Notes: a model not told the origin generated them from the sequence alone. Numbered from the stretch's first letter, positions 1,320 through 13,715 are shown. The stretch is DNA of 14,569 bases from Candidatus Mcinerneyibacteriota bacterium (GCA_030630935.1 DAOVMD010000025.1:1-14569); one strand, 5' to 3'. Translations and numbers: made by a program.

Positions 1320-2204
1320 ATGAAAAAGAATGTATCATTAGTATTATCCGGTGGTGGTGCAAGAGGAGTTGCACATATAGGTGCAATTGAGGAATTAGAA
1401 AACCAGGGATTTGTCATTAAATCTATCGCAGGTACTTCCATGGGCTCTCTTGTTGGTGCTGTTTATGCAGTTGGGAAGATGCAAGAGTATAAAAATTGGA
1501 TATATACACTTGATAAATTAGACGTCCTTAAGCTTATAGATTTTACATTTAGTTTACAAGGATTAATAAAAGGAGATCGAGTCTTCGAAAAAATGAAGCA
1601 ATTTATTCCTGACTTGAATATCGAAGAATTGAAAATTCATTATGTTGCAACAGCAACAGATATTTCAAGCAGCAAAGAGGTAATTTTTACAAAAGGAAGT
1701 ATATACGATGCAGTAAGAGCTTCAATAGCAATCCCTACTGTCATTACGCCTGTAGAAACAGATGATTCGATACTTGTAGATGGTGGTGTCATTAATCCAG
1801 TACCTATTAATCATGTTAAAAGAACCAAAGATGATATATTAATAGTAGTTTATGTAAATGCGGATATTCCGGTATATAAGCCAGTTATCTTGAAGAATAA
1901 AAAAGATAAAAAACAATCAGTATATCTTCAAAGGATAAAAGAATTTCAAAGCCATTTAACTAAAATTAATCCGTTAGATAAAAATGATAAAATAGGATAT
2001 TTTAATCTTATAAACAAAACTCTTAGTTTACTAACACACCAAATTTCAAAAATGACAATGGAAAAATATCCACCTGACATTTTAATAAATGTATCCAGGC
2101 AAACCTGTGGTGTTTTTGATTTTTATAGAGCTGAAGAATTAGTTGAAATTGGTCGGCATGCAACTGAAAAAAGTGTTAAAGAGTATAACAATAGGTTAGG
2201 TTAA
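1320..2204 (+). CDS. patatin-like phospholipase (RssA-type)
   Basis: Predicted serine lipid acyl hydrolase of 294 aa using a Ser-Asp dyad. Visible motifs: the glycine-rich oxyanion hole G11-G-G-A-R-G16, the nucleophile elbow G38-T-S-M-G42 with Ser40, and the catalytic Asp in D154-G-G156. All three are in the order and spacing of bacterial patatins, and the length is normal for the RssA-like group. There is no signal peptide or membrane segment, so it should act in the cytoplasm or at the inner face of the membrane on phospholipid or acyl ester substrates. The C-terminal 110 residues are Lys-rich and not recognised. ATG 1320 is chosen because it begins directly before the family's first beta strand (VSLVLSGGG). 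It is transcribed from P2 and followed after one base by a glycosyltransferase gene, so the two are probably co-translated. The real substrate is unknown. Confidence 0.88.
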   Translation: MKKNVSLVLSGGGARGVAHIGAIEELENQGFVIKSIAGTSMGSLVGAVYAVGKMQEYKNWIYTLDKLDVLKLIDFTFSLQGLIKGDRVFEKMKQFIPDLNIEELKIHYVATATDISSSKEVIFTKGSIYDAVRASIAIPTVITPVETDDSILVDGGVINPVPINHVKRTKDDILIVVYVNADIPVYKPVILKNKKDKKQSVYLQRIKEFQSHLTKINPLDKNDKIGYFNLINKTLSLLTHQISKMTMEKYPPDILINVSRQTCGVFDFYRAEELVEIGRHATEKSVKEYNNRLG

Positions 2205-2205
2205 T

Positions 2206-2976
2206 ATGAAAAGAGTAAGTATAATAATTTGTACTTTTAATGAAGAAAAGACAATTTCAGAAGTAGTTACATCTTGTTGTAAATACAATAAAGAAGATGA
2301 AGTAATAGTAGTAGATGACGGCTCAACTGATAATACAGAAAGTATTCTTGTTGAATTACAGAAACGCTTCACTTTTAGGTATGAGAAATTACCCAAAAAC
2401 AAAGGTAAATCATGGGCAATGGCACATGGAGTAGAAATCTCAATGAATGAAATTATTTTATTCTGTGATGCTGATTTATCAAATATAACAAAAGAACATT
2501 TTGATAATATATTACAACCTATATTTGATAATAGTGCAGATATGGTATTAGGCCAGCCTTCTGAAACATTTATAGACTACCGAATCAACCCATTCAGATC
2601 GTTAACCGGAGAAAGAGTATTATTTAAAAATGATATTTTACCAATTCTTAATAACATAAGGGAGATAAGATTTGGAGTTGAAACATTTATTAATCTTTAT
2701 TTTCAGTCCAAAGGTAAACGAATTAAGTATGTTTTATTGCATGGACTAAAACACCCTACAAAATATTCGAAAACTACTCCAATTAAAGCTACAAAAGAAT
2801 TCATTAGTGAAGGAGAGGAAATTGCTTTAACTTTATTGGAAAATCATGATTTAATAACCCAGCGTATTGAATATTTAATAAAAAAATCAAATAAGCAAGC
2901 AAGAAATAAGTTTTCGAAAATGCAGAAAATAATTAATGATAAGTTAATGAAACTTAAGGATAAGATGAATTTGTAA
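2206..2976 (+). CDS. family 2 glycosyltransferase (GT-A fold, dolichol-phosphate-mannose-synthase-like)
   Basis: Predicted nucleotide-sugar-dependent transferase, 256 aa. Seen: the N-terminal strand and loop SIIICTFNEE (5-14), the nucleotide-binding VVDDGSTDN (D37-D38), NKGK-W-M-HG, and the metal-binding D88-A-D90 in FCDADLS. There is no transmembrane helix, and the C-terminus (about 225-256) is a basic amphipathic helix rich in Lys and Met that could associate with membrane. It belongs to the GT2 families that move sugars to lipid carriers or lipids. The acceptor is not predictable. It starts one base after the patatin stop without a strong Shine-Dalgarno site, which suggests translational coupling. 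Sharing a transcript with a phospholipase hints at glycolipid or lipid-linked sugar turnover, but this is inference. Confidence 0.85.
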   Translation: MKRVSIIICTFNEEKTISEVVTSCCKYNKEDEVIVVDDGSTDNTESILVELQKRFTFRYEKLPKNKGKSWAMAHGVEISMNEIILFCDADLSNITKEHFDNILQPIFDNSADMVLGQPSETFIDYRINPFRSLTGERVLFKNDILPILNNIREIRFGVETFINLYFQSKGKRIKYVLLHGLKHPTKYSKTTPIKATKEFISEGEEIALTLLENHDLITQRIEYLIKKSNKQARNKFSKMQKIINDKLMKLKDKMNL

Positions 2977-3310: not shown

Positions 3311-4726
3311 CTAATTATATTTTTCTTTCCAAATATCCATAGTTTTTTCTTTTAATTCTTTATCAAATTTCACTAGTTCACGATAGTATTCTTCATCATT
3401 TATTGACAATTCCGCATTTTTATCCTGGAATTTTATGTTTTTCGTAATTATATTTTTTTTGAAATTATCATAATGATCCCTGATTGAACATGGCATAAGC
3501 CAATTTCTTTCCGGATTATTTTTACTTCCATATTCAGACTGCCATTTTCTTCCACGTTTAAAGAATTCACTTTGGAATGCATCTGCTAATGATTTATTTT
3601 GAGAATATAAATCATTAATATTATCTTTATAATATGGTACAAATACGCATGGCATTATATTACCATTCCAATCTACGTAACAATACCCTCCAGGCCTTGC
3701 GTACGCAATACAACCATTTGAAGCTCCTGCACTATTCCAAAAATCACCAATAAAATATTTTTTCTCAAATAATAACTTTTCCCAATGATTATATAGTTGA
3801 ACTCTTTCTTCAGGAGATATCATTAATTCCATACTATTTTTACCTCTGCCAATCGGCATCAGATGAAAAGACCACATAAATGTTGCACCTAATTCTTCAA
3901 AGTAATAGTCATAGAATTCATCACCTAATAACAGATCAATGTTTTTCTTTGTAGCGGTAACAGAAATACCAAAAGGTATACCTCTTTCTCTTAATAATCT
4001 CATTGAATTTAAAATTTTCTTATATGTCCCTTTCCCGCGTCGCTCATCGGTTTCTTCTTCATAGCCCTCAACTGAAATTGCCGGAGTCACATTTCCGGAG
4101 TAAAACATTGTTTCAATTATGTCCTCATTTAATAGCGTTCCATTTGTATATATTAGAAAAAACATATCAGAAAAATGATGTGTAATATCTAAAATAGTTG
4201 TTCCGTCAGAGTTATACATAAATGGTTCTCCTCCTGATATAACAGCAAAATTACTTCCCATAATATCTCTCATTTCAGTTAAGATCTTTTTAAAGATATT
4301 ATGGTCAAGCGTAGTTGCTGTCTCGATTGTTGAAGAAGCATAGCAACCTGTACATTTTAAATTACAACGTTGAGTTGGTGAAATTGTACAGAATCGCGGT
4401 GGCCGCATTCCATAACGATTTAGATATCTATCTGAAACCTTGCGGTGGTTTTCAATTAATAATTGCTGTTTTACAAAACGATTTTCAATTTCTTTCAAAT
4501 AATTCAATGAGACATAACCTTTATTTATATTCTTTAATGATTGTTCTAACAAGTTCATTAAAAACTGAGTTTTTATCTCATGTGTATAAGGAATTCCTTC
4601 ATTATCTTTTTCAACTATGAATTTTTTAACCTTTGGACGTAAAGTTTTTAAAACTAATTTTGAAATTATTGGATTCCCTGAAAAAAGTTTTAACCCATTA
4701 TAAAGTAATGTGTCTATAGGACTCAT
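3311..4726 (-). CDS. radical SAM enzyme with C-terminal SPASM-like cysteine cluster
   Basis: Predicted iron-sulfur enzyme of 471 aa that cleaves S-adenosylmethionine to start a radical reaction. The [4Fe-4S] motif is C121-N-L-K-C125-T-G-C128 (CX3CX2C), followed by the GGEP SAM-binding motif (ISGGEPF). The C-terminal third has C339, C349 (GGYCYVDWNG), C360 (MPCVFVP) and C413 (MPCSIRD). The pattern GG-C-V-xx-G-I-PC resembles SPASM or twitch auxiliary-cluster domains, so a second Fe-S cluster is likely. Residues 1-110 form an extra helical, Lys-rich N-terminal domain with no signal peptide. AGGAGGT lies upstream of ATG 4726, and the stop is TAG. It is the last gene of the seven-gene operon, 22 nt after the barrel gene. 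SPASM enzymes modify peptides, sugars or lipids; no precursor-peptide gene is seen next to it, so the substrate is unknown. Confidence 0.85.
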   Translation of the reverse strand: MSPIDTLLYNGLKLFSGNPIISKLVLKTLRPKVKKFIVEKDNEGIPYTHEIKTQFLMNLLEQSLKNINKGYVSLNYLKEIENRFVKQQLLIENHRKVSDRYLNRYGMRPPRFCTISPTQRCNLKCTGCYASSTIETATTLDHNIFKKILTEMRDIMGSNFAVISGGEPFMYNSDGTTILDITHHFSDMFFLIYTNGTLLNEDIIETMFYSGNVTPAISVEGYEEETDERRGKGTYKKILNSMRLLRERGIPFGISVTATKKNIDLLLGDEFYDYYFEELGATFMWSFHLMPIGRGKNSMELMISPEERVQLYNHWEKLLFEKKYFIGDFWNSAGASNGCIAYARPGGYCYVDWNGNIMPCVFVPYYKDNINDLYSQNKSLADAFQSEFFKRGRKWQSEYGSKNNPERNWLMPCSIRDHYDNFKKNIITKNIKFQDKNAELSINDEEYYRELVKFDKELKEKTMDIWKEKYN

Positions 4727-4748
4727 GTCAAACCTCCTGTTTTAATAT

Positions 4749-6083
4749 TTAAAAATTATATTTGACTCTAAAATAGATTTCATCATAATCTTTAAATTTT
4801 CCAAAGTTTGTAGTTTCCTTCCCATCAAAGAATCTGCAGCCTAATACGAATTCTGAATTTTGGAAAGGGTAATATGCAATTTCCGGATTCCCGATTATTG
4901 CGTAATTATTTTCAATGTCATGAAAATCTTGAATCTCAATTCCCCCTCCAATAGGAATGATTTTTAATTTATCATTAAAACATTTATACTCAACTCCAAA
5001 CATGAAATAATCCTTTAAATTTTCCTCACCTCTTTCGTGGATAAATCCATGCAGATACTGTCCATTCAAATAAACTCCATTTTTGAAAGTGTAATCTCCA
5101 CCTATTACATATTTAAAATAAGGCTCGTCTAACACTGGCATACTATTATTAGGAAGTCCTAAACCGGAGAAATCAGTTAACATAAAAACCTTTTCCGGAA
5201 TGAAATAAGCGGTTTCAGCCCAAATACCGACATTCCCGATCGCCCCGGCCATATCAAAACCTATAACTTTCAATCTTGGGAAAATAAGTTCTGCATTCAC
5301 ATCAACTTCACCTGGAATTAATGTTGGATAGATAGTTATTTTTTGTATTACCGGTAAGTCATCTCTTCCATATACATAACTTACAGAGAAGTCAAATCCG
5401 AATAGATTTGAGGATAGTCTGATTCCGGAGATTGAGTTTTCCTTAGGATTTCTCAAAGGGAGTATAATATTTTCTGAATAATTATTTATTACTAATCCCT
5501 CAGGAGTATCTAAAGTGCCAAAGAGTAATTCACCCGCTTTACCTTTTGGCAGTATAGCAGGTTTAGAAATGGGAATATAAACAAGTTCCAACTTAAATTC
5601 TCCAAAATAATAAGATACCTTTATACTATCAGATCCAATATGTCTCCCAAAATCCCAAAGGTCTTCAAGGTCATCTGCATTAAGATTATCTGTTGGATTA
5701 AGTTTGTCTCCAGTACCCCAGGCAATCCGCTGTCTCCCTACTTTTAAGTCCAAATTTTTAATACCTAAATTATAGAAATCAACATAAGCTTCCCGAATTT
5801 CTATATCATACGGAGAGATTTTATCCGAGTCAGTTAAGTCACTACTATTATTAATTTCTGTAAATTCCCACGAACGAATCCAGAGCTCGGAATAGAAATT
5901 TGTGTTTTCATTTTTATCCGTTTCAAATTGTAAATTTAATCTATACTCGTGCCAGACATTATCGTTAGTCTCATATAATTGATACCTTTCGTCAATCTGA
6001 AAATATCCATTGATTCCAATATCAGCATAAGCATATAATGGAATAATCATTATCAATAGTAATGTAAATAAATATCTTTTCAT
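4749..6083 (-). CDS. outer-membrane beta-barrel protein, DUF1302-like
   Basis: Protein of 444 aa with a clear Sec signal peptide (MKRYLFTLLLIMIIPLYAYA, cleavage about residue 20-21). Alternating aromatic beta strands follow throughout, ending in the barrel signal YFRVKYNF with a terminal Phe. The segment G116-R-Q-R-I-A-W-G123 followed by NPTD is what I associate with DUF1302-type barrels, which are found next to RND/MMPL transporters and DUF1329 or LolA-like proteins. It should sit in the outer membrane as the exit pore or receptor of the export route. The gap to the upstream LolA-like gene is 27 nt, and AAAGGAAAG is about 7 nt before ATG 6083. DUF1302 membership is from memory of the motif; beta-barrel porin is the safe call. 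Confidence 0.78.
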   Translation of the reverse strand: MKRYLFTLLLIMIIPLYAYADIGINGYFQIDERYQLYETNDNVWHEYRLNLQFETDKNENTNFYSELWIRSWEFTEINNSSDLTDSDKISPYDIEIREAYVDFYNLGIKNLDLKVGRQRIAWGTGDKLNPTDNLNADDLEDLWDFGRHIGSDSIKVSYYFGEFKLELVYIPISKPAILPKGKAGELLFGTLDTPEGLVINNYSENIILPLRNPKENSISGIRLSSNLFGFDFSVSYVYGRDDLPVIQKITIYPTLIPGEVDVNAELIFPRLKVIGFDMAGAIGNVGIWAETAYFIPEKVFMLTDFSGLGLPNNSMPVLDEPYFKYVIGGDYTFKNGVYLNGQYLHGFIHERGEENLKDYFMFGVEYKCFNDKLKIIPIGGGIEIQDFHDIENNYAIIGNPEIAYYPFQNSEFVLGCRFFDGKETTNFGKFKDYDEIYFRVKYNF

Positions 6084-6110
6084 TTTTTACTTTCCTTTTA
6101 TTCTGAATAT

Positions 6111-6866
6111 TTATCTTTCTAAATTTCGTTTAGTGAAAACATCATCGGATAATTTATTGTCAAATTTTGATTCTAAGATAATCATTTTTGTGCTATGTTT
6201 TACTTTTAAGTCCTGCATTGTTGTTTCTTCTGAAATCCAATAATCTCCGACCTTATTAAGTTTAGCGCGGGTTTGAATCTTAATCAGGTTTTTCCCCTTA
6301 TCATAGTATTCAATCTTAACAGGATATGAATTATCTTTTCTAACATACATTATTAATTTGAAATATTCTGATTTCATACCTTCTTTAAGAGTAAGTTCTA
6401 GAATATATTGTTCTTCTGTTTCATTTTTTAATGAAGGAATCCAAGTGTCGGAAAATCTCTTTGCTTCCATGTCTTCATAAGTGAAATCTGTACCGGCAAA
6501 TTTTGAGTTTTTTACATGGGATGCAATCCTTCTTATTTTCTTAAAGGCTGGCAAGTATAAATACATAATATCATCGGGTAGTGAAAGAAATCCAATGTCT
6601 TTTTTCTCTGCAGGCTTAGTAAATTTTACGAGTCTTTTATCAAATCCCTTTTGATACATAGTTAACTCATTTTCTTTTTCTTTACCTTTTTTGTCAATCA
6701 GGACTAATTTCACCTTTAATTCCTGATCAATAGGGGCATTTATAACATTATCCACCTTTTCAAGAATTTTTCCCGCAGACAATTTTTCCTTGGGTAACGG
6801 GTCCTCACAAAAAGTTAACCCTGTTATAATTAAGGAAAATAAAACAATAAACGAAATCCTTTTCAT
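6111..6866 (-). CDS. LolA-like periplasmic lipid carrier (outer membrane lipoprotein-sorting protein family)
   Basis: Protein of 251 aa with an N-terminal signal sequence (MKRISFIVLFSLIITGLTFC). The mature part has the alternating-strand pattern of the LolA/LppX half-barrel. Its core FLSLPDDIMYLYLPAFKKIR followed by D127-F-T-Y-E-D-M133 is the hallmark I know from the LolA_like 'outer membrane lipoprotein-sorting protein' family that accompanies MMPL transporters. Members are thought to carry lipids or lipoproteins across the periplasm. Cys20 after FISL-ITGLTF is not in a good lipobox (Phe at -1), so I favour a soluble periplasmic protein. AAAGGAGT precedes ATG 6866. It lies 33 nt after the transporter gene and 27 nt before the barrel gene, so pump, carrier and barrel are encoded in the order they would act. 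Confidence 0.82.
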   Translation of the reverse strand: MKRISFIVLFSLIITGLTFCEDPLPKEKLSAGKILEKVDNVINAPIDQELKVKLVLIDKKGKEKENELTMYQKGFDKRLVKFTKPAEKKDIGFLSLPDDIMYLYLPAFKKIRRIASHVKNSKFAGTDFTYEDMEAKRFSDTWIPSLKNETEEQYILELTLKEGMKSEYFKLIMYVRKDNSYPVKIEYYDKGKNLIKIQTRAKLNKVGDYWISEETTMQDLKVKHSTKMIILESKFDNKLSDDVFTKRNLER

Positions 6867-6899
6867 CTTTAACTCCTTTTGTTTTTGATGATTTAAACT

Positions 6900-9224
6900 T
6901 TACTTTAATACAGAAACTTCAATTTCTTCATCCTCTGTAATTTCTTCATCTTCTGTTATCCTCTTCACTTTAGGGGATTGATTATTTTTTGTTCCATTTT
7001 TTGTGATGATTAGAATTGCTGCAGGTAAAAGTGTAATTGCACCGATTCCTGAACTTATCATCGTAATGGCAATTAATATTCCAAATCTTCTTAACGGAAT
7101 CAGGTTTGCAAATAATAAAATTAAGAAACCCAGTGTTACAGTAATAACATTTATAATAATTGCTTTTCCTGTGGTCTCTAATGTTTTATCAAGAGCATGT
7201 AATTCATTTGGATATCTCTTGCGCTCCTCCTTAAAGCGATTCATAAAATGAATTGAATAATCTATACCAATTCCGATTGATATACTTCCTACTAAAACAG
7301 TTGCAATATCCAAGGGAATTTTTGTGAAACCCATGAATCCTAAAATAATTACTAAAGTAAATCCAATCGGGATAAGTCCCACGAGTGCTCTTTTTATAGA
7401 TTTATTCATTAATAATAAGCATATAAAAATCAGGCAAATTGCAATTATTAAACTTTGAAGCTGGCTTTTCATTATACTATTATCTAAATTTTGGTAAATT
7501 AACGGCATACCTGTTTGGGAAAATGTAACTACAGATGAGTTGTGAGATTTCACATACTCATCAATTTGACCTACTAAATATTTCATTCTTTCTGTATCCA
7601 CATTTGTTATAGTTGCCTGGATTAACGCTTCACTTTTATCATCGTTTACAAGTTGTTCAAGAATATCTTCACCCTCAATTAAAAACCAAAGATTATCAAC
7701 CTTCATTCTACTATCGGGGATTTTTTTCCCTTCACCCATCATATCATTCATCTCTTCGATTAGTTCCACTATTGATTGTGGATTATGAACATCATCTAAA
7801 GTAGTTAAGAAATCTTCCATACCTTTCATTTCATTCAAGACTTCAGGATCTAAAATATCTCCTTCTACTATAACTTGAATTGGTATAGAACCACCAAATT
7901 TCTTTTCAAGTAATTCTTCGGTTAACCGAATACTGCTCCCGGGTTTGAAATAATCTAACATATCAACCCTTCTTTTTACAGATGGAATACCTATAATACC
8001 AATAATTACTAATATTAAACCTATAAAGATGATTAAACGTTCTCTCTTTAAAATAAAGCTTCCAATTAAATCCATCATATTTATAAAGAAACTTGCATTT
8101 TCTTTCTCTTTGATCTGTTTTTTCCTTACCGGGAAGAAAGTTAACAATGCAGGTATAAACGTTATTGATAAAAATAATGAAAAGAACACTCCTAAACATG
8201 AAAAAATACCGAATTCTCTAATCATTGTTAGATATGATCCAAAAACAAAAGCTAAAAAACCACCCATTGTAGTAACTCCGGTAAGAAGAACAGGTATTGC
8301 TATATTTGATAATGCTTCTATTGATTGATTAATTTTATTGTTCTCATCTTTAACTTTCTCTTTAAAAAGATGAATTACATGAATGGAATATGCACTCCCA
8401 ACTGCAATTAAGATAATTGGAATTAGATTTGATATTACGGTTAAAGGTATTCCCAAAGCACTCATGATTCCCAAAGTCCAAATATTAGCGATAACTACTG
8501 TCAAGATTGGAAGAACTACTCCTCTGAAAGATCTAAATGCAAAAAGTAGGGATACAATAATTAATAATATGATTAATGGAACTAATAATATTAAGTCAGA
8601 TGTAATAATTTTATTTATATCTATCATTTGAAATGGAATACCACCATAATAAACTTTTTGTTTTAAACCTTCTTCTTGAACTAACTGTTTTATTTTTCGA
8701 GCTGTATCTACTTTATCAACATTATCATTTAATCTGCAGACAATTAAAGTCGCAGTCGAATTCTCTGAAACTATGCGTCCCCTGTACATATCTTTTGAAA
8801 GGGTATATTGTTTTAGATTTTTAATATCTTCAGGATTTTTAGGAAGATTAAATTCATCAATTAGCTTTCCTATTTCAAAACCATCTTCAAGTTTTTTTAT
8901 ATCTAAAACATTTGTTAAGCTTGTAACATAAGAAACTCCCGGGAGTACTTTAAATTTATTAGTTAAAATATTTATTGATTTAATTGTCTCTAAATCAAAA
9001 ATATCATCTGATTCAATCGCTACCATTGCTAATGAATTACCTTTATATTCTTCCCCAATGTAATCAAATAATTTCACGTCATTATCAGTTTTGGGGAGAT
9101 AGCTTATTATATCTGGATTAATTTTTAAGCCTTTTAAACTAAAAATTAATAATCCGGTAATTAATATAACAAAAATAATTATTAATACTCGAAGTTTTAT
9201 AATAACCCATGAAAATTTCTGCAT
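6900..9224 (-). CDS. RND/MMPL-family inner-membrane transporter
   Basis: Protein of 774 aa with the duplicated RND layout: TM1 at about 9-30, a large periplasmic loop (31-205), five helices (about 207-375), TM7 at about 392-412, a second periplasmic loop, and five helices to about 740. The two halves have matching TM4 motifs: A-V-G-S277-A-Y-S-I-H in the first and G-I-D655-Y-S-I-H-F in the second. Only the second carries an Asp, the proton-relay residue usual in RND pumps, so coupling may be one-sided. Half-size MMPL-like RND proteins move lipids and hydrophobic metabolites outward using the proton gradient. The extreme C-terminus is acidic with a tandem ITEDEE duplication, encoded by an 18-bp repeat. 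AGGTGA precedes ATG 9224, 12 nt after the GNAT gene. The substrate is not predictable, but with the LolA-like and barrel genes it should feed an envelope export path. Confidence 0.88.
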   Translation of the reverse strand: MQKFSWVIIKLRVLIIIFVILITGLLIFSLKGLKINPDIISYLPKTDNDVKLFDYIGEEYKGNSLAMVAIESDDIFDLETIKSINILTNKFKVLPGVSYVTSLTNVLDIKKLEDGFEIGKLIDEFNLPKNPEDIKNLKQYTLSKDMYRGRIVSENSTATLIVCRLNDNVDKVDTARKIKQLVQEEGLKQKVYYGGIPFQMIDINKIITSDLILLVPLIILLIIVSLLFAFRSFRGVVLPILTVVIANIWTLGIMSALGIPLTVISNLIPIILIAVGSAYSIHVIHLFKEKVKDENNKINQSIEALSNIAIPVLLTGVTTMGGFLAFVFGSYLTMIREFGIFSCLGVFFSLFLSITFIPALLTFFPVRKKQIKEKENASFFINMMDLIGSFILKRERLIIFIGLILVIIGIIGIPSVKRRVDMLDYFKPGSSIRLTEELLEKKFGGSIPIQVIVEGDILDPEVLNEMKGMEDFLTTLDDVHNPQSIVELIEEMNDMMGEGKKIPDSRMKVDNLWFLIEGEDILEQLVNDDKSEALIQATITNVDTERMKYLVGQIDEYVKSHNSSVVTFSQTGMPLIYQNLDNSIMKSQLQSLIIAICLIFICLLLMNKSIKRALVGLIPIGFTLVIILGFMGFTKIPLDIATVLVGSISIGIGIDYSIHFMNRFKEERKRYPNELHALDKTLETTGKAIIINVITVTLGFLILLFANLIPLRRFGILIAITMISSGIGAITLLPAAILIITKNGTKNNQSPKVKRITEDEEITEDEEIEVSVLK

Positions 9225-9236
9225 TTCTTTTCACCT

Positions 9237-10361
9237 TTATTTATTAGTTAATTTTTTTTCGTAAATTCGATATTTTTTGTAGATTTTACCACCTATTTCA
9301 GAATCAAATTTATTTATTAAATCATTATCTTCTAAATTCCAACCTAACTCACACCATTCATAGCCATTTTTCAATGCTGCCTTCTCTGTTTCATAATATA
9401 AAAGTGCAATAACACCTTTATTACGATACTCTTTCTTCACACCTCCAATCAAAGAACGAATTCCTTTTATCTTCCTTTTATAATATAAAAACTTCAAAAT
9501 CCCAAGCAAGCCAAGCTTCCCATTTAACTTCTTTAAAATAAAATTAATGTCCGGAATGGTTACAGAAACACCTACAGGTTTACCATCAACTTCTGCAAAT
9601 AAAACAAGATCAGGATCAGCAAATTGTTTTAAATTACTTGCTGTTAAATCCATCTCTTCTTCAGTCATAGGTACAAATCCCCAATTCTTTTCCCAGGCAG
9701 AATTATAGAGTTCTTTCAAAAGGTTGGCATCCCTCCGGAAATTCTTCATATCAAAGGCACGGATTTTTATACCTGTCCTCTTACGGATAACCTTAACAAT
9801 TCTTTCAATTCTTTCAGGAATTCCATCTTTAATTAACTTTAAAAATGCATAAAGATCTTTTGCTTTTTTAAAACCATATTCTTCTGCAAAATCAATATAA
9901 TATGGCTGTGTATATGGCATCATAACTGTTGGACATTTATCAAAACCTTCTAATAAAAACGCACATTCCTCATTCATGCTTGGATTAACTGGTCCTCGCA
10001 TGGAATTTTTACCGTAATATCTTAACCATTTCGAAACTTTATAATATAGTGCCTTGGCAACTTTATAATCCTCGATGCATTCAAAAAAACCAAAAAATCC
10101 AATATCATCATTATGAAAATTATTATGATTACCATCCACTATCCCTGCAATTCTACCAACAACTTCACCGTCCTTGAAAGCTAAAAACAAAATTCTGTGG
10201 GCATGTTCCCAAAAAGGATTCTTGTTTAAATCAAGAGTTGCTTCAACTTCACTTATTAATGGAGGAACCCAATAATTATTACCTTTATATATTTTCCAAG
10301 GTAATTTTATAAATTGATTTAAATCCTTTTCGCCATTAACTTCTTTAATTTTTAGTGACAT
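9237..10361 (-). CDS. GNAT-fold acyltransferase-like protein (double-GNAT type)
   Basis: Cytoplasmic protein of 374 aa without signal or membrane segments. The C-terminal part has a GNAT acyl-CoA-binding signature, K-K-E-Y-R313-N-K-G316-V-I, after a strand reading SVTIPD and RSLIGGV. The N-terminal half also has GNAT-like strands (FLAFKDGEVVGRIAGIVD) and the conserved block GPVNPSMNEECAFLLEGF. The length suggests two GNAT domains, as in Fem-like or N-acyltransferase proteins. It resembles a widespread uncharacterised family annotated as GNAT or YghO-like. It would transfer an acyl or aminoacyl group to an amine. Start ATG 10361 has AAGGAG 6-7 nt upstream and overlaps the end of the hydrolase gene by 17 bp, indicating translational coupling. 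Within this operon it is a candidate enzyme for making the exported molecule. Confidence 0.7.
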   Translation of the reverse strand: MSLKIKEVNGEKDLNQFIKLPWKIYKGNNYWVPPLISEVEATLDLNKNPFWEHAHRILFLAFKDGEVVGRIAGIVDGNHNNFHNDDIGFFGFFECIEDYKVAKALYYKVSKWLRYYGKNSMRGPVNPSMNEECAFLLEGFDKCPTVMMPYTQPYYIDFAEEYGFKKAKDLYAFLKLIKDGIPERIERIVKVIRKRTGIKIRAFDMKNFRRDANLLKELYNSAWEKNWGFVPMTEEEMDLTASNLKQFADPDLVLFAEVDGKPVGVSVTIPDINFILKKLNGKLGLLGILKFLYYKRKIKGIRSLIGGVKKEYRNKGVIALLYYETEKAALKNGYEWCELGWNLEDNDLINKFDSEIGGKIYKKYRIYEKKLTNK

Positions 10362-11367
10362 TTTTTGCTCCTTCTTCTATTTCGTTATCTGGAGAACCTT
10401 TAATGAAATTAAGGATTTCTTTACGTAATGGATCACTCTTATGAACTGTAAAGATAATTTCTGAAAAATGATTATGAACCGGAACCTCTTTAATCTTGTA
10501 TTTTAATTTTTTCTTATCTAATTTATGAGCCAATTCCTTTGATTGAATTTTTAAAACTTTTATATCTCTTTCTGCATAACAAATAAATAATTCAGGTTTG
10601 TAATCAGTGATATACGTAACGGGGGAAGCTTCTTTCAACTCTTCAGGAGTGCTGCCAAAAGTACCTATAATTGCTTTCTTATGTCTATTTGAAACTGGAT
10701 ATCTCCTTGAAAAATCATATACCCCGCTAATCAAAATTACTCCTTTTAATTTGTCAATATCAAGATTATGCGTCTTACTAAATTCTTTGTTAAAAAAAAT
10801 GTATGAACTTATATGAGCGCCTGCAGAATGACCACATAAATAAATATCTTCAGGATTACCATTGTACTTATGGATATTTTTAAAAACATAAAATATGGCG
10901 GAAGTAACATCTTCCATTTGAGAAGGATGTTTATGTTGAGGAGAGAGTCTATAAGAAACGATAACACTCACAATGCCTTCCTTTGCAAAAGAATTGGCAA
11001 GATAAGTATACCAGGATCTATCTCCAAAACTCCAGGAACCTCCGTGAATGAAAATTACCACTGGATGATTACCCTTTCTATCCGGGTAATAAACATCTAA
11101 GCAGTGTTTATTATAAGAAGGATCTTTATGACCTTTTGGTTTTGTATAATAGTATATGTTCTTTTTTACTTTGACTTTTATTGTAGTCGCTTCGTTTTTC
11201 CGATATTGACAATCTGCTGACGTTAAAAGCAACGAAAGAGAAATTATAAATGCAACGACTTTAAGCTTTGAAAAATTCCGTGCTCTAAATTTAATTTTCC
11301 TATTTCTGTAAACCTCTGCATGTTTTAGAATTTTAGACCACATTGTTATTTTGTTCGAATTGCTCAT
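10345..11367 (-). CDS. membrane-anchored alpha/beta-hydrolase (BD-FAE/carboxylesterase-like)
   Basis: Predicted esterase of 340 aa. Seen: oxyanion motif H108-G-G110-S-W in VIFIHGGSW, nucleophile elbow G-H-S181-A-G, a likely acid in the YAERD segment (about 266), and a likely catalytic His in V-H298-N-H300-F. The order and spacing fit the alpha/beta-hydrolase_3/BD-FAE group. The N-terminus is odd: about 34 basic residues, then one hydrophobic helix (LKVVAFIISLSLLLTSADC, about 35-53), so it is probably a signal-anchored or lipoprotein-like periplasmic enzyme. Cys53 is not in a classic lipobox. The long basic N-terminus is supported by a perfect AAGGAGGT site before ATG 11367; that site is formed by the last codons of the TetR gene (AGG AGG TAA), 8 nt upstream. 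It probably hydrolyses or transfers an acyl ester of the system's cargo. Confidence 0.82.
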   Translation of the reverse strand: MSNSNKITMWSKILKHAEVYRNRKIKFRARNFSKLKVVAFIISLSLLLTSADCQYRKNEATTIKVKVKKNIYYYTKPKGHKDPSYNKHCLDVYYPDRKGNHPVVIFIHGGSWSFGDRSWYTYLANSFAKEGIVSVIVSYRLSPQHKHPSQMEDVTSAIFYVFKNIHKYNGNPEDIYLCGHSAGAHISSYIFFNKEFSKTHNLDIDKLKGVILISGVYDFSRRYPVSNRHKKAIIGTFGSTPEELKEASPVTYITDYKPELFICYAERDIKVLKIQSKELAHKLDKKKLKYKIKEVPVHNHFSEIIFTVHKSDPLRKEILNFIKGSPDNEIEEGAKNVTKN

Positions 11368-11375
11368 AAAAAAAA

Positions 11376-11957
11376 TTACCTCCTTAATATGCCGTTAAAA
11401 AGTAGATCTAATAATTTATCAATATTTTTTTCTATTTCATTTTCGTTAAATTTGGTGGACCACTCAAATTCAACGCCTTTAAGAGTGACCAAAATCACTG
11501 TACTTGTTAATTCAACATCATCAATTGCGAAGCGCTCTTCTTGTATTCCTTTTTGTAAAATTTCTTTAATAAGAATAATTTCTTCATTATCATAATCTGT
11601 TCGTAATTTTTGAACAAAAGCATAATGCTCTAAGTAATCATTTTGTAATGCATTATATATATTAGCTAATTCTCTTAGATATTTCATCCGGGTTAATATA
11701 AATACTTTTAATTTCTCTTGAGGATTATCGATATTAACTAGTGCTTGATTTATTTTCTCTTTAAGTGTTTTTAATTCCTTTTCTACAACAGCTTTAAAAA
11801 TATCTTCCTTACTTTTAAAATAGTAGTATATAGAACTTTTTCCCACTCTCGCAGCTTTTGCTATCTCATCTATTGTTGTTTTGAATAAACCAAACCTTGA
11901 GAATATTGATTGAGCCACATTAAGCAGCCGTTCTTTCTTTTCTTCAATTTTACTCAT
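11376..11957 (-). CDS. TetR-family transcriptional regulator
   Basis: Protein of 193 aa with the typical N-terminal TetR DNA-binding domain. Residues T27-T-I-D-E-I-A-K-A-A and G39-K-S-S-I-Y-Y-Y-F47 form the helix-turn-helix, followed by KSKEDIF at 48-54. The C-terminal helical domain would bind a small-molecule ligand; it is variable and gives no clue to the inducer. It is the first gene of the operon, read from the consensus promoter at 12003-12031, with AAAGGAGG 5 nt before ATG 11957. A regulator leading its own export operon usually represses it and releases when the pump substrate or a related lipid or stress molecule binds. A palindrome in the leader (11973-11986) is a candidate operator. 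Confidence 0.9.
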   Translation of the reverse strand: MSKIEEKKERLLNVAQSIFSRFGLFKTTIDEIAKAARVGKSSIYYYFKSKEDIFKAVVEKELKTLKEKINQALVNIDNPQEKLKVFILTRMKYLRELANIYNALQNDYLEHYAFVQKLRTDYDNEEIILIKEILQKGIQEERFAIDDVELTSTVILVTLKGVEFEWSTKFNENEIEKNIDKLLDLLFNGILRR

Positions 11958-12002: not shown

Positions 12003-12031
12003 ATTATAGCATAAAAAATCTGAAAAGTCAA
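12003..12031 (-). promoter_or_regulatory. promoter of the seven-gene operon
   Basis: On the minus strand TTGACT (12031-12026) and TATAAT (12008-12003) are exactly 17 bp apart. A T-run precedes the -35 box, giving TTTTACTTGACTTTT, much like P1 and P3. No other comparable promoter was noticed within the operon, whose gaps are all under 35 nt. Confidence 0.8.
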
Positions 12032-12553: not shown

Positions 12554-12595
12554 TTGACTTTTAATAGAAATTCACATATAATTAAAGAGAAGGAG
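12554..12595 (+). promoter_or_regulatory. sigma70-type promoter plus RBS, copy 3 (P3)
   Basis: TTGACT (12554-12559), 17-bp spacer, TATAAT (12577-12582), AAGGAG at 12590-12595. It shares the stretch TTTTTTCCTTGACTTTTAAT with P1. AAGGAG is followed at once by ATG TGA (12598-12603), a start-stop, and the fic start is 38 nt downstream, so this RBS does not serve fic directly. Confidence 0.78.
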
Positions 12596-12632: not shown

Positions 12633-13715
12633 ATGAGTTATAATAAAGATAAGCCTTATAATGATTTACCTCTACTTTTACCCGATACTTCGTATTGGGA
12701 AAAGATAAATATTTATAAGAAACTGGCAGAAGCACGGGCGGCATTAGCTGAATTAAAGGGTCGTTTATCAATAATACCCAATCCACTTATGCTTATTAAC
12801 ACACTTGTATTGCAGGAAGCAAAAGACAGTTCCACCATAGAAAATATTTTTACGACAAATGAAAAACTTTATAAAGCTTTTTTATCTGATAAGTTTTCTA
12901 CTGATCCTGCAACTAAAGAAGTTTTACAATATAGAGATGCTCTTTGGAATTCATATAAAAAACTGAAAAACAGAAATGATTTTTCTAAACAAATGGTGAT
13001 TAATATTTTTAAAATAATTACACAAAAAAATGAAGGAATTAGAACCGGTCTTGTTTATATTGGTAACCAATATAATGTAATTTATACTCCACCTGAACCG
13101 GGAAACATTCTTGAAAATAAACTAAAAAATTGGTTTGATATAGCTTTAAATCAAAATAACTTAGAACCTCTTATTAAAATGGCAATATTACATTATCAAT
13201 TTGAAGCAATTCATCCTTTCAGTGACGGAAATGGTAGAACAGGAAGAATATTAAATGCAATATTTCTTTGTCTGGAAAACCTTATTGATCTTCCGGTCCT
13301 CTATATGTCTAAATATATCCTTGAAAATAAAAATGAATATTACAGACTTTTAAAAGAAGTTACTGAATCTAATAATTGGGAAGACTGGATTCTTTATATT
13401 TTAGATGCAGTAAAACATACTTCAATTTTTACTTTGAAAAAGGTTAACGCGATTTATGATATTTACTTAAAAACTATTGATAAAGTTAAATCAGAAGCAA
13501 AAGAGATTTATTCCCATGAGTTAATTAATGTATTATTTAATCAACCATATTGTAAAATCTCGATTCTTAAAGAAATGAAAATCGCCTCCAGAAATACTGC
13601 TAGTAAATATTTGAAAAAACTCGAAAAAATTGGTATTTTATCTTCTGGAAAAATTGGAAGAGAAGTTCTTTATAAGAATTTAGCTTTGTATGATATTTTA
13701 TCTTCAGGGCAATAA
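12633..13715 (+). CDS. Fic-family protein adenylyltransferase, class II, with winged-helix tail
   Basis: Protein of 360 aa. The Fic core motif is complete: H194-P-F-S-D198-G-N-G201-R-T-G-R205, with the catalytic His and the phosphate-binding loop. Upstream, S66-S-T-I-E70-N71 matches the (S/T)xxxE(G/N) inhibitory helix, so this is a self-inhibited class II enzyme; Glu70 would block ATP until displaced. Residues 1-110 match the Fic N-terminal domain type, and the C-terminus (about 290-360) looks like a winged-helix DNA-binding domain (SRNTASKYLKKLEKIGIL). Overall length and layout resemble the Shewanella SoFic type. It would transfer AMP from ATP to Ser, Thr or Tyr of an unknown target, in the cytoplasm. 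An in-frame TGA 4-6 nt before ATG 12633 fixes this start, and the RBS is weak. It is monocistronic from P3, the same promoter type as the hsdM remnant; Fic genes of this kind often sit in restriction-modification loci. Confidence 0.88.
   Translation: MSYNKDKPYNDLPLLLPDTSYWEKINIYKKLAEARAALAELKGRLSIIPNPLMLINTLVLQEAKDSSTIENIFTTNEKLYKAFLSDKFSTDPATKEVLQYRDALWNSYKKLKNRNDFSKQMVINIFKIITQKNEGIRTGLVYIGNQYNVIYTPPEPGNILENKLKNWFDIALNQNNLEPLIKMAILHYQFEAIHPFSDGNGRTGRILNAIFLCLENLIDLPVLYMSKYILENKNEYYRLLKEVTESNNWEDWILYILDAVKHTSIFTLKKVNAIYDIYLKTIDKVKSEAKEIYSHELINVLFNQPYCKISILKEMKIASRNTASKYLKKLEKIGILSSGKIGREVLYKNLALYDILSSGQ

Follow-up and report, generated by a model that had tools for sequence, protein, structure and literature searches.

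A pump, a LolA-like carrier and a DUF1302-like barrel recur, usually in one gene order and in part beside acyl-lipid genes, in several bacterial phyla

The window, a 14,569-nt stretch of DNA from a Candidatus Mcinerneyibacteriota bacterium, is contig C247 of a 3.16 Mb assembly that is 80% complete; seven genomes of its phylum are in our data set. A reading made from the sequence alone (the sequence-only reading) placed seven genes in one direction at positions 3311-11957, and all seven open reading frames are present, each supported by a Pfam assignment above its gathering score. They encode a TetR regulator, an alpha/beta-hydrolase, a GNAT protein, an MMPL/RND pump, a LolA-like carrier, a DUF1302-like barrel and a radical SAM enzyme. 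The gaps, described as -17 to +33 nt, were confirmed from the ORF coordinates (TetR-hydrolase 8 nt, hydrolase-GNAT -17, GNAT-MMPL 12, MMPL-LolA 33, LolA-barrel 27, barrel-radical SAM 22). The operon and its surroundings contain the following features.

1320..2204, + strand: patatin-like lipase, RssA-like, convergent to the operon (family in 21 of 87 barrel loci, see below)
2206..2976, + strand: GT2 glycosyltransferase, directly after the patatin (family in 17 of 87 barrel loci)
3311..4726, - strand: radical SAM/SPASM-type enzyme (Pfam, conserved Cys)
4749..6083, - strand: DUF1302-like outer-membrane beta-barrel with a signal-peptide-like N-terminus and C-terminal Phe (Pfam, sequence)
6111..6866, - strand: LolA-like periplasmic carrier, PF17131, DUF1329-related (Pfam)
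6900..9224, - strand: MMPL/RND pump, HAE3-like (Pfam, NCBIfam, conserved Asp655)
9237..10361, - strand: GNAT-type acyltransferase, 374 aa (Pfam)
10345..11367, - strand: BD-FAE-type alpha/beta-hydrolase with an N-terminal hydrophobic segment (Pfam, motifs)
11376..11957, - strand: TetR-family regulator (Pfam TetR_N)
12003..12031, - strand: candidate operon promoter, TTGACT-17 nt-TATAAT, with an extended -10 (TG before TATAAT) (consensus match)

Pfam scores were 79.9 bits for radical SAM, 22.8 for SPASM, 201.6 for MMPL, 29.1 for GNAT, 126.7 for BD-FAE and 52.5 for TetR_N. The best NCBIfam match of the TetR protein is a fatty-acid FadR model, with a score far under the cut-off. The hydrolase carries HGG at residue 108 and GHSAG at 179.

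The seven genes are likely to form a single transcript. For the one promoter that had been proposed, the best minus-strand promoter-like site (12031-12003) is a good candidate, lying just upstream of the TetR gene. However, the count of promoter-like sites in the region equals the expectation from shuffled sequence, and a single promoter is therefore plausible rather than established.

Several other elements share the contig. A 32-nt promoter-like element, TTGACTTTTAATAGAAATTCACATATAATTAA, occurs on the + strand at 404-435, 1264-1295 and 12554-12585, and a scan of the 3.16 Mb assembly that allowed 3 mismatches gave no further copies. The three copies span the ribosome-binding region and sit before a short broken frame, the patatin-GT2 pair and a Fic gene, respectively. 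The short frame (430-500) reads MAKRKSGKKEEPLEKQL and then stops; we take it to resemble the start of type I restriction HsdM, possibly as a decayed remnant. An IS200-like transposase lies at 740-1207 (+; Y1_Tnp, 69.3 bits), and its 3' end enters six 25-nt tandem units (ACAAAGATATCG...) at 1045-1193, with inverted copies at 681-710. The Fic gene (12633-13715, +) encodes a SoFic-type Fic/AMPylation protein (403.9 bits against a cut-off of 550; PADLOC SoFic, 350.5).

The window pump has its best NCBIfam match in the HAE3 model TIGR00921 (299.9 bits, cut-off 351.9), and it also matches lipid and sterol RND models in NCBIfam and lipid transporters in the PDB. Its second-half Asp-Tyr motif is conserved, with D655 present in 64/64 full-length relatives. 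At the matching position of the first half, 62/64 relatives have Ala, and both halves contain an invariant His. This pattern would be compatible with proton coupling through one half of the protein. The carrier scores above cut-off for both PF17131 (LolA_like, 165.9 bits) and PF07044 (DUF1329, 28.5 bits), and has relatives with solved structures. The barrel matches PF06980 (DUF1302) at 34.1 bits against a cut-off of 23.2, over a short stretch (90-130); a structure model built from two sequences reached a pLDDT of 30 and was discarded.

We investigated how these genes are arranged in other genomes. A radical SAM query in named genomes gave 13 loci, spread over Bacteroidota, Planctomycetota, Calditrichota and WOR-3/Hydrothermota, one of which (L026) holds a whole related cluster. 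Matches to barrel profile A1 came from 4 of 395 genomes in a Bacteroidota phylum draw, from 47 of 147 in the WOR-3 phylum (Caldifarciminota) and from 44 of 344 in a single order of Bacteroidota. We then grouped the ORFs of 87 loci selected by the barrel, taken from the window's phylum, Bacteroidota and Caldifarciminota. Pump, carrier and barrel occur together in 78 of the 87 loci. The trio is thus conserved as a unit, which supports the envelope-spanning transport proposed earlier. TetR accompanies the trio in 56 of the 78 trio loci, usually in front. The usual order, TetR-MMPL-LolA-barrel, is kept across phyla, and because it recurs in this way it is far beyond chance. Pairwise protein distances of barrel, carrier and pump are correlated (r = 0.79-0.89; 0 of 500 permutations as high), with species phylogeny contributing to the correlation. 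A second, divergent TetR-MMPL-LolA-barrel set lies elsewhere in the window's genome (G000:C355, L013), which thus has more than one such conduit.

The other operon genes behave differently. When the neighbourhood check was run, 64 of the 78 trio loci lacked the radical SAM, GNAT and hydrolase genes. The seven-gene unit is thereby refuted, since the trio is regularly found without any of the three enzymes, the outcome set beforehand as decisive. The seven genes make up a modular neighbourhood and do not form an obligate set.

The added neighbours are nevertheless no random mix: what does recur around the trio is a set of acyl-lipid genes. We counted twelve acyl-lipid enzyme families, which were chosen from these same loci, a choice that inflates enrichment. 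At least one family lies near the trio in 31 of the 87 loci, and 16 loci have three or more. Lipid-enzyme ORFs number 7.3 per 100 kb compared with 0.4 in 47 control neighbourhoods, a ratio inflated by the choice of families. The decorating enzymes are patatin, GT2, PlsC/GlsA-type acyltransferases, FakA/FakB, PlsY, PlsX, FabH and ACP, and the same families are repeated at decorated loci of two phyla. For example, L026 has acyltransferases, FakA, DegV/FakB and PlsY in addition to patatin and GT2. Against the NCBIfam model of the lyso-glycine-lipid O-acyltransferase GlsA, one of its acyltransferases scores 268.3, above the cut-off of 260. L117-L123 encode PlsX, FabH, ACP, PlsC, an LpxL-like protein, FakA/FakB and PlsY. 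The patatin and GT2 genes of the window (1320-2976) are members of this recurring set, as both families are found near the cassette at other loci, and the functional neighbourhood is therefore larger than 3311-11957. Of the earlier proposal of lipid or metabolite synthesis and export, the lipid part gains from the company that the trio keeps in relatives, while the idea of seven genes as one defined system finds no support. Fifty of the 78 trio loci have no tested lipid enzyme nearby, and the trio may therefore serve other hydrophobic substrates. ABC1/UbiB-like kinase and small phasin-like genes, named by eye, recur near the cassette in 9 and 6 loci (L099, L117, L120, L107).

Thirteen of the 78 trio loci also have a linked radical SAM gene. 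Across two broad surveys it lies within 10 kb of the barrel in 11 of the 32 genomes with both genes, where about 0.5 are expected; some of the 11 are related and hence not independent. The linkage takes several different arrangements, with at least 3 label changes on the radical SAM tree, from which a match in L112 was left out because its branch, about 6 long, marked it as an outlier. At the level of whole genomes, the barrel and radical SAM genes are weakly associated, without reaching significance (P = 0.09 and 0.065). These data indicate that the link between the radical SAM gene and the trio is real but occasional. Where it exists, lipid enzymes are present in 11 of 13 loci (odds ratio 18, P = 5e-5, uncorrected for kinship). 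In loci that lack the trio, too, the radical SAM gene often follows immediately on a TetR gene of its own (L021, L024, L027, L106, L107, L123), which suggests that the TetR-radical SAM pair may be an older unit.

In the protein itself, C121-C125-C128 (CX3CX2C) is the SAM cluster site, and the conserved C339, C360 and C413 could form an auxiliary cluster. The structure model (pLDDT 87) resembles the SPASM/twitch enzymes SuiB, SkfB and anSME. Similarity to the lipid-coupling enzyme Tes (7tol) is marginal, with E = 3.5e-4 over the core and a TM-score of 0.36-0.39. We did not read the gene as a defence gene, as the viperin-like PADLOC match (49.7 bits) is confined to the shared core.

GNAT is linked to the trio in 3 of 78 loci (the window, L102 and L140), and the hydrolase in 1 of 78, that of the window alone. 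The GNATs of the window and L102 share one subfamily, and that of L140 comes from another. In L102 the gene (786-1902) is split into two overlapping frames of 234 and 142 aa by a frameshift or assembly error. A serine-palmitoyltransferase-like gene adjoins a GNAT paralogue in the window's genome (L012) and also the GNAT of a family member; the copy by GNAT in G001 scores 580 bits for NF047600 (cut-off 640). Such a gene lies at most 2 genes from GNAT in 11 of the 42 GNAT neighbourhoods examined, and none stands beside GNAT within the window. A ceramide synthase role for the window GNAT, which we considered, finds no support: in the tree the protein belongs to a subfamily separate from the clades linked to serine palmitoyltransferase, and the genes nearest to it lie in mixed contexts, including non-lipid ones. 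A fair guess is that it acts as an N- or O-acyltransferase.

A pump with a LolA-type carrier and a barrel is an already known kind of grouping. As the sequence-only reading had proposed, the classes resemble RND + DUF1329 + DUF1302 neighbourhoods, and they are found in AmeABCD and in Pseudomonas putida. AmeABCD of Castellaniella defragrans comprises DUF1302, DUF1329/LolA-superfamily, COG4447 and HAE3 RND proteins, and its deletion reduces monoterpene tolerance (PMC6394551). Like the window, it encodes together an RND pump, a LolA-superfamily periplasmic protein and a DUF1302 outer-membrane protein; the window pump is closest to the HAE3 type but stays under the cut-off of that model. It differs in that the window has a short LolA_like carrier, TetR in front and lipid enzymes in place of monoterpene genes; a Pfam scan of the seven operon proteins gave no match to AmeC (COG4447). 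P. putida depends on DUF1302/DUF1329 genes when it grows on Tween 20, and a transport function was proposed for them (PMC10866462). The proposed system, PP_0765/PP_0766 with PP_2018/PP_2019, likewise brings together DUF1302, DUF1329, a periplasmic protein and RND, and was linked to a fatty-acid ester substrate. However, its genes are divided between two loci, the use of Tween 20 for growth suggests uptake, and radical SAM, GNAT and acyltransferases are not described there. On n-C28 alkane, Thalassolituus upregulates TOL_3187/TOL_3188, an MMPL-LolA protein and the porin next to it (PMC6304351); the domains and adjacent barrel resemble ours, whereas the MMPL and LolA domains are fused and induction is by a long alkane.

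The window pump belongs to the same superfamily as the lipid-moving RND proteins HpnN (hopanoid) and BstA (sterol). Scores fall well below the model cut-offs for both HpnN (157 bits against 751.85 for TIGR03480; 71.7 against 1100 for NF052374) and BstA (50 against 1400), and genes for hopanoids or sterols are absent from the window. Mycobacterial MmpL pumps with LolA-fold lipoproteins, such as MmpL7 and LppX, also pair MMPL with a LolA-fold carrier for envelope lipids. They differ in lacking a DUF1302 barrel and in serving another envelope, and their sequence similarity to the window pump is distant. As for the likeness to aryl-polyene clusters drawn earlier, the ten window proteins scanned include no ketosynthase, ACP or dehydratase. 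A search of the literature available to us found nothing joining radical SAM with MMPL, DUF1302 and LolA, and nothing on MMPL with 'outer membrane lipoprotein-sorting protein'. What is new is that Caldifarciminota, Bacteroidota and the window's phylum have a short form, TetR-MMPL-LolA-barrel, that this cassette is repeatedly coupled to genes of acyl-lipid synthesis, and that a radical SAM gene can be linked to it.

On balance, we favour reading the locus as a TetR-controlled acyl-lipid transport cassette with local lipid-tailoring genes, in which RND pump, carrier and barrel form a conduit akin to AmeABCD and to the DUF1302/DUF1329 system of P. putida. This reading builds on the gene content, the trio and its order, the RND Asp-Tyr motif and the lipid-gene enrichment; from these we infer the substrate class, the direction and each biochemical step. 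Cytoplasmic GNAT, radical SAM and GT2 enzymes (in relatives PlsC, GlsA, PlsY, FabH and ACP) would make or modify a fatty-acyl lipid, which the proton-driven pump would take out of the inner membrane. The LolA-like protein would ferry it across the periplasm in a hydrophobic pocket, and the barrel would deliver it into or through the outer membrane. The hydrolase and patatin could trim or recycle acyl chains, and TetR could sense an acyl ligand.

The same parts could also be arranged to run inward, which we consider unlikely though worth serious attention. Here the hydrolase and patatin would cut environmental or outer-membrane lipids, the barrel and carrier would import the products, and FakA/FakB with PlsX/PlsY/PlsC would rebuild phospholipid. 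FakAB activates free fatty acids, and FakA/FakB stand with PlsY and patatin in L026, L117-L119 and L126. Import or recycling thus keeps some weight, because FakA/FakB, patatin and hydrolase fit the reuse of free fatty acids, and because the precedents in Pseudomonas (Tween 20, PMC10866462) and Thalassolituus (n-C28 alkane, PMC6304351) concern growth on lipid-like substrates. However, the window operon has no adjacent FakA/FakB/PlsXY. Transport from the inner to the outer membrane is favoured over the reverse, because those RND/MMPL pumps whose direction is known are exporters and because FabH, ACP and PlsX, which are biosynthetic, lie together with the trio; FabH and ACP in relatives suit synthesis better than uptake.

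A less probable account is that the trio expels toxic hydrophobic compounds in general, with nearby enzymes present by chance or for detoxification. The trio has the same protein classes as AmeA, AmeB and AmeD, whose operon protects against monoterpenes (PMC6394551), and TetR control and the 50 bare trio loci would fit an efflux pump. Against this, the operon lacks an AmeC-like protein, and the lipid-enzyme families at decorated loci are shared between two phyla. It is very improbable that the pump exports a small peptide matured by the radical SAM/SPASM enzyme. The nearest solved folds of this enzyme are those of peptide-modifying enzymes, but no small precursor recurs among ORFs of at least 80 aa, no NCBIfam cut-off for a RiPP maturase equivalog is reached, and linked copies are surrounded by lipid genes, with no peptide genes.

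The acyl-lipid cassette can be taken further, at the price of becoming rather doubtful. The RND-LolA-barrel set might be a dedicated outer-membrane route, in several little-known phyla, for a specialised acyl lipid from a co-encoded phospholipid/aminolipid pathway (FabH, ACP, PlsX/Y/C, GlsA-like, GNAT), of which the radical SAM protein might be a new lipid-modifying enzyme. The literature describes the flippases and transporters of bacterial sphingolipids as not yet identified (PMC11087976). Found repeatedly next to genes for lipid synthesis, the pump-carrier-barrel set is a concrete candidate for a lipid route to the outer membrane, and its occasional partner places a widespread radical SAM family in a lipid context.
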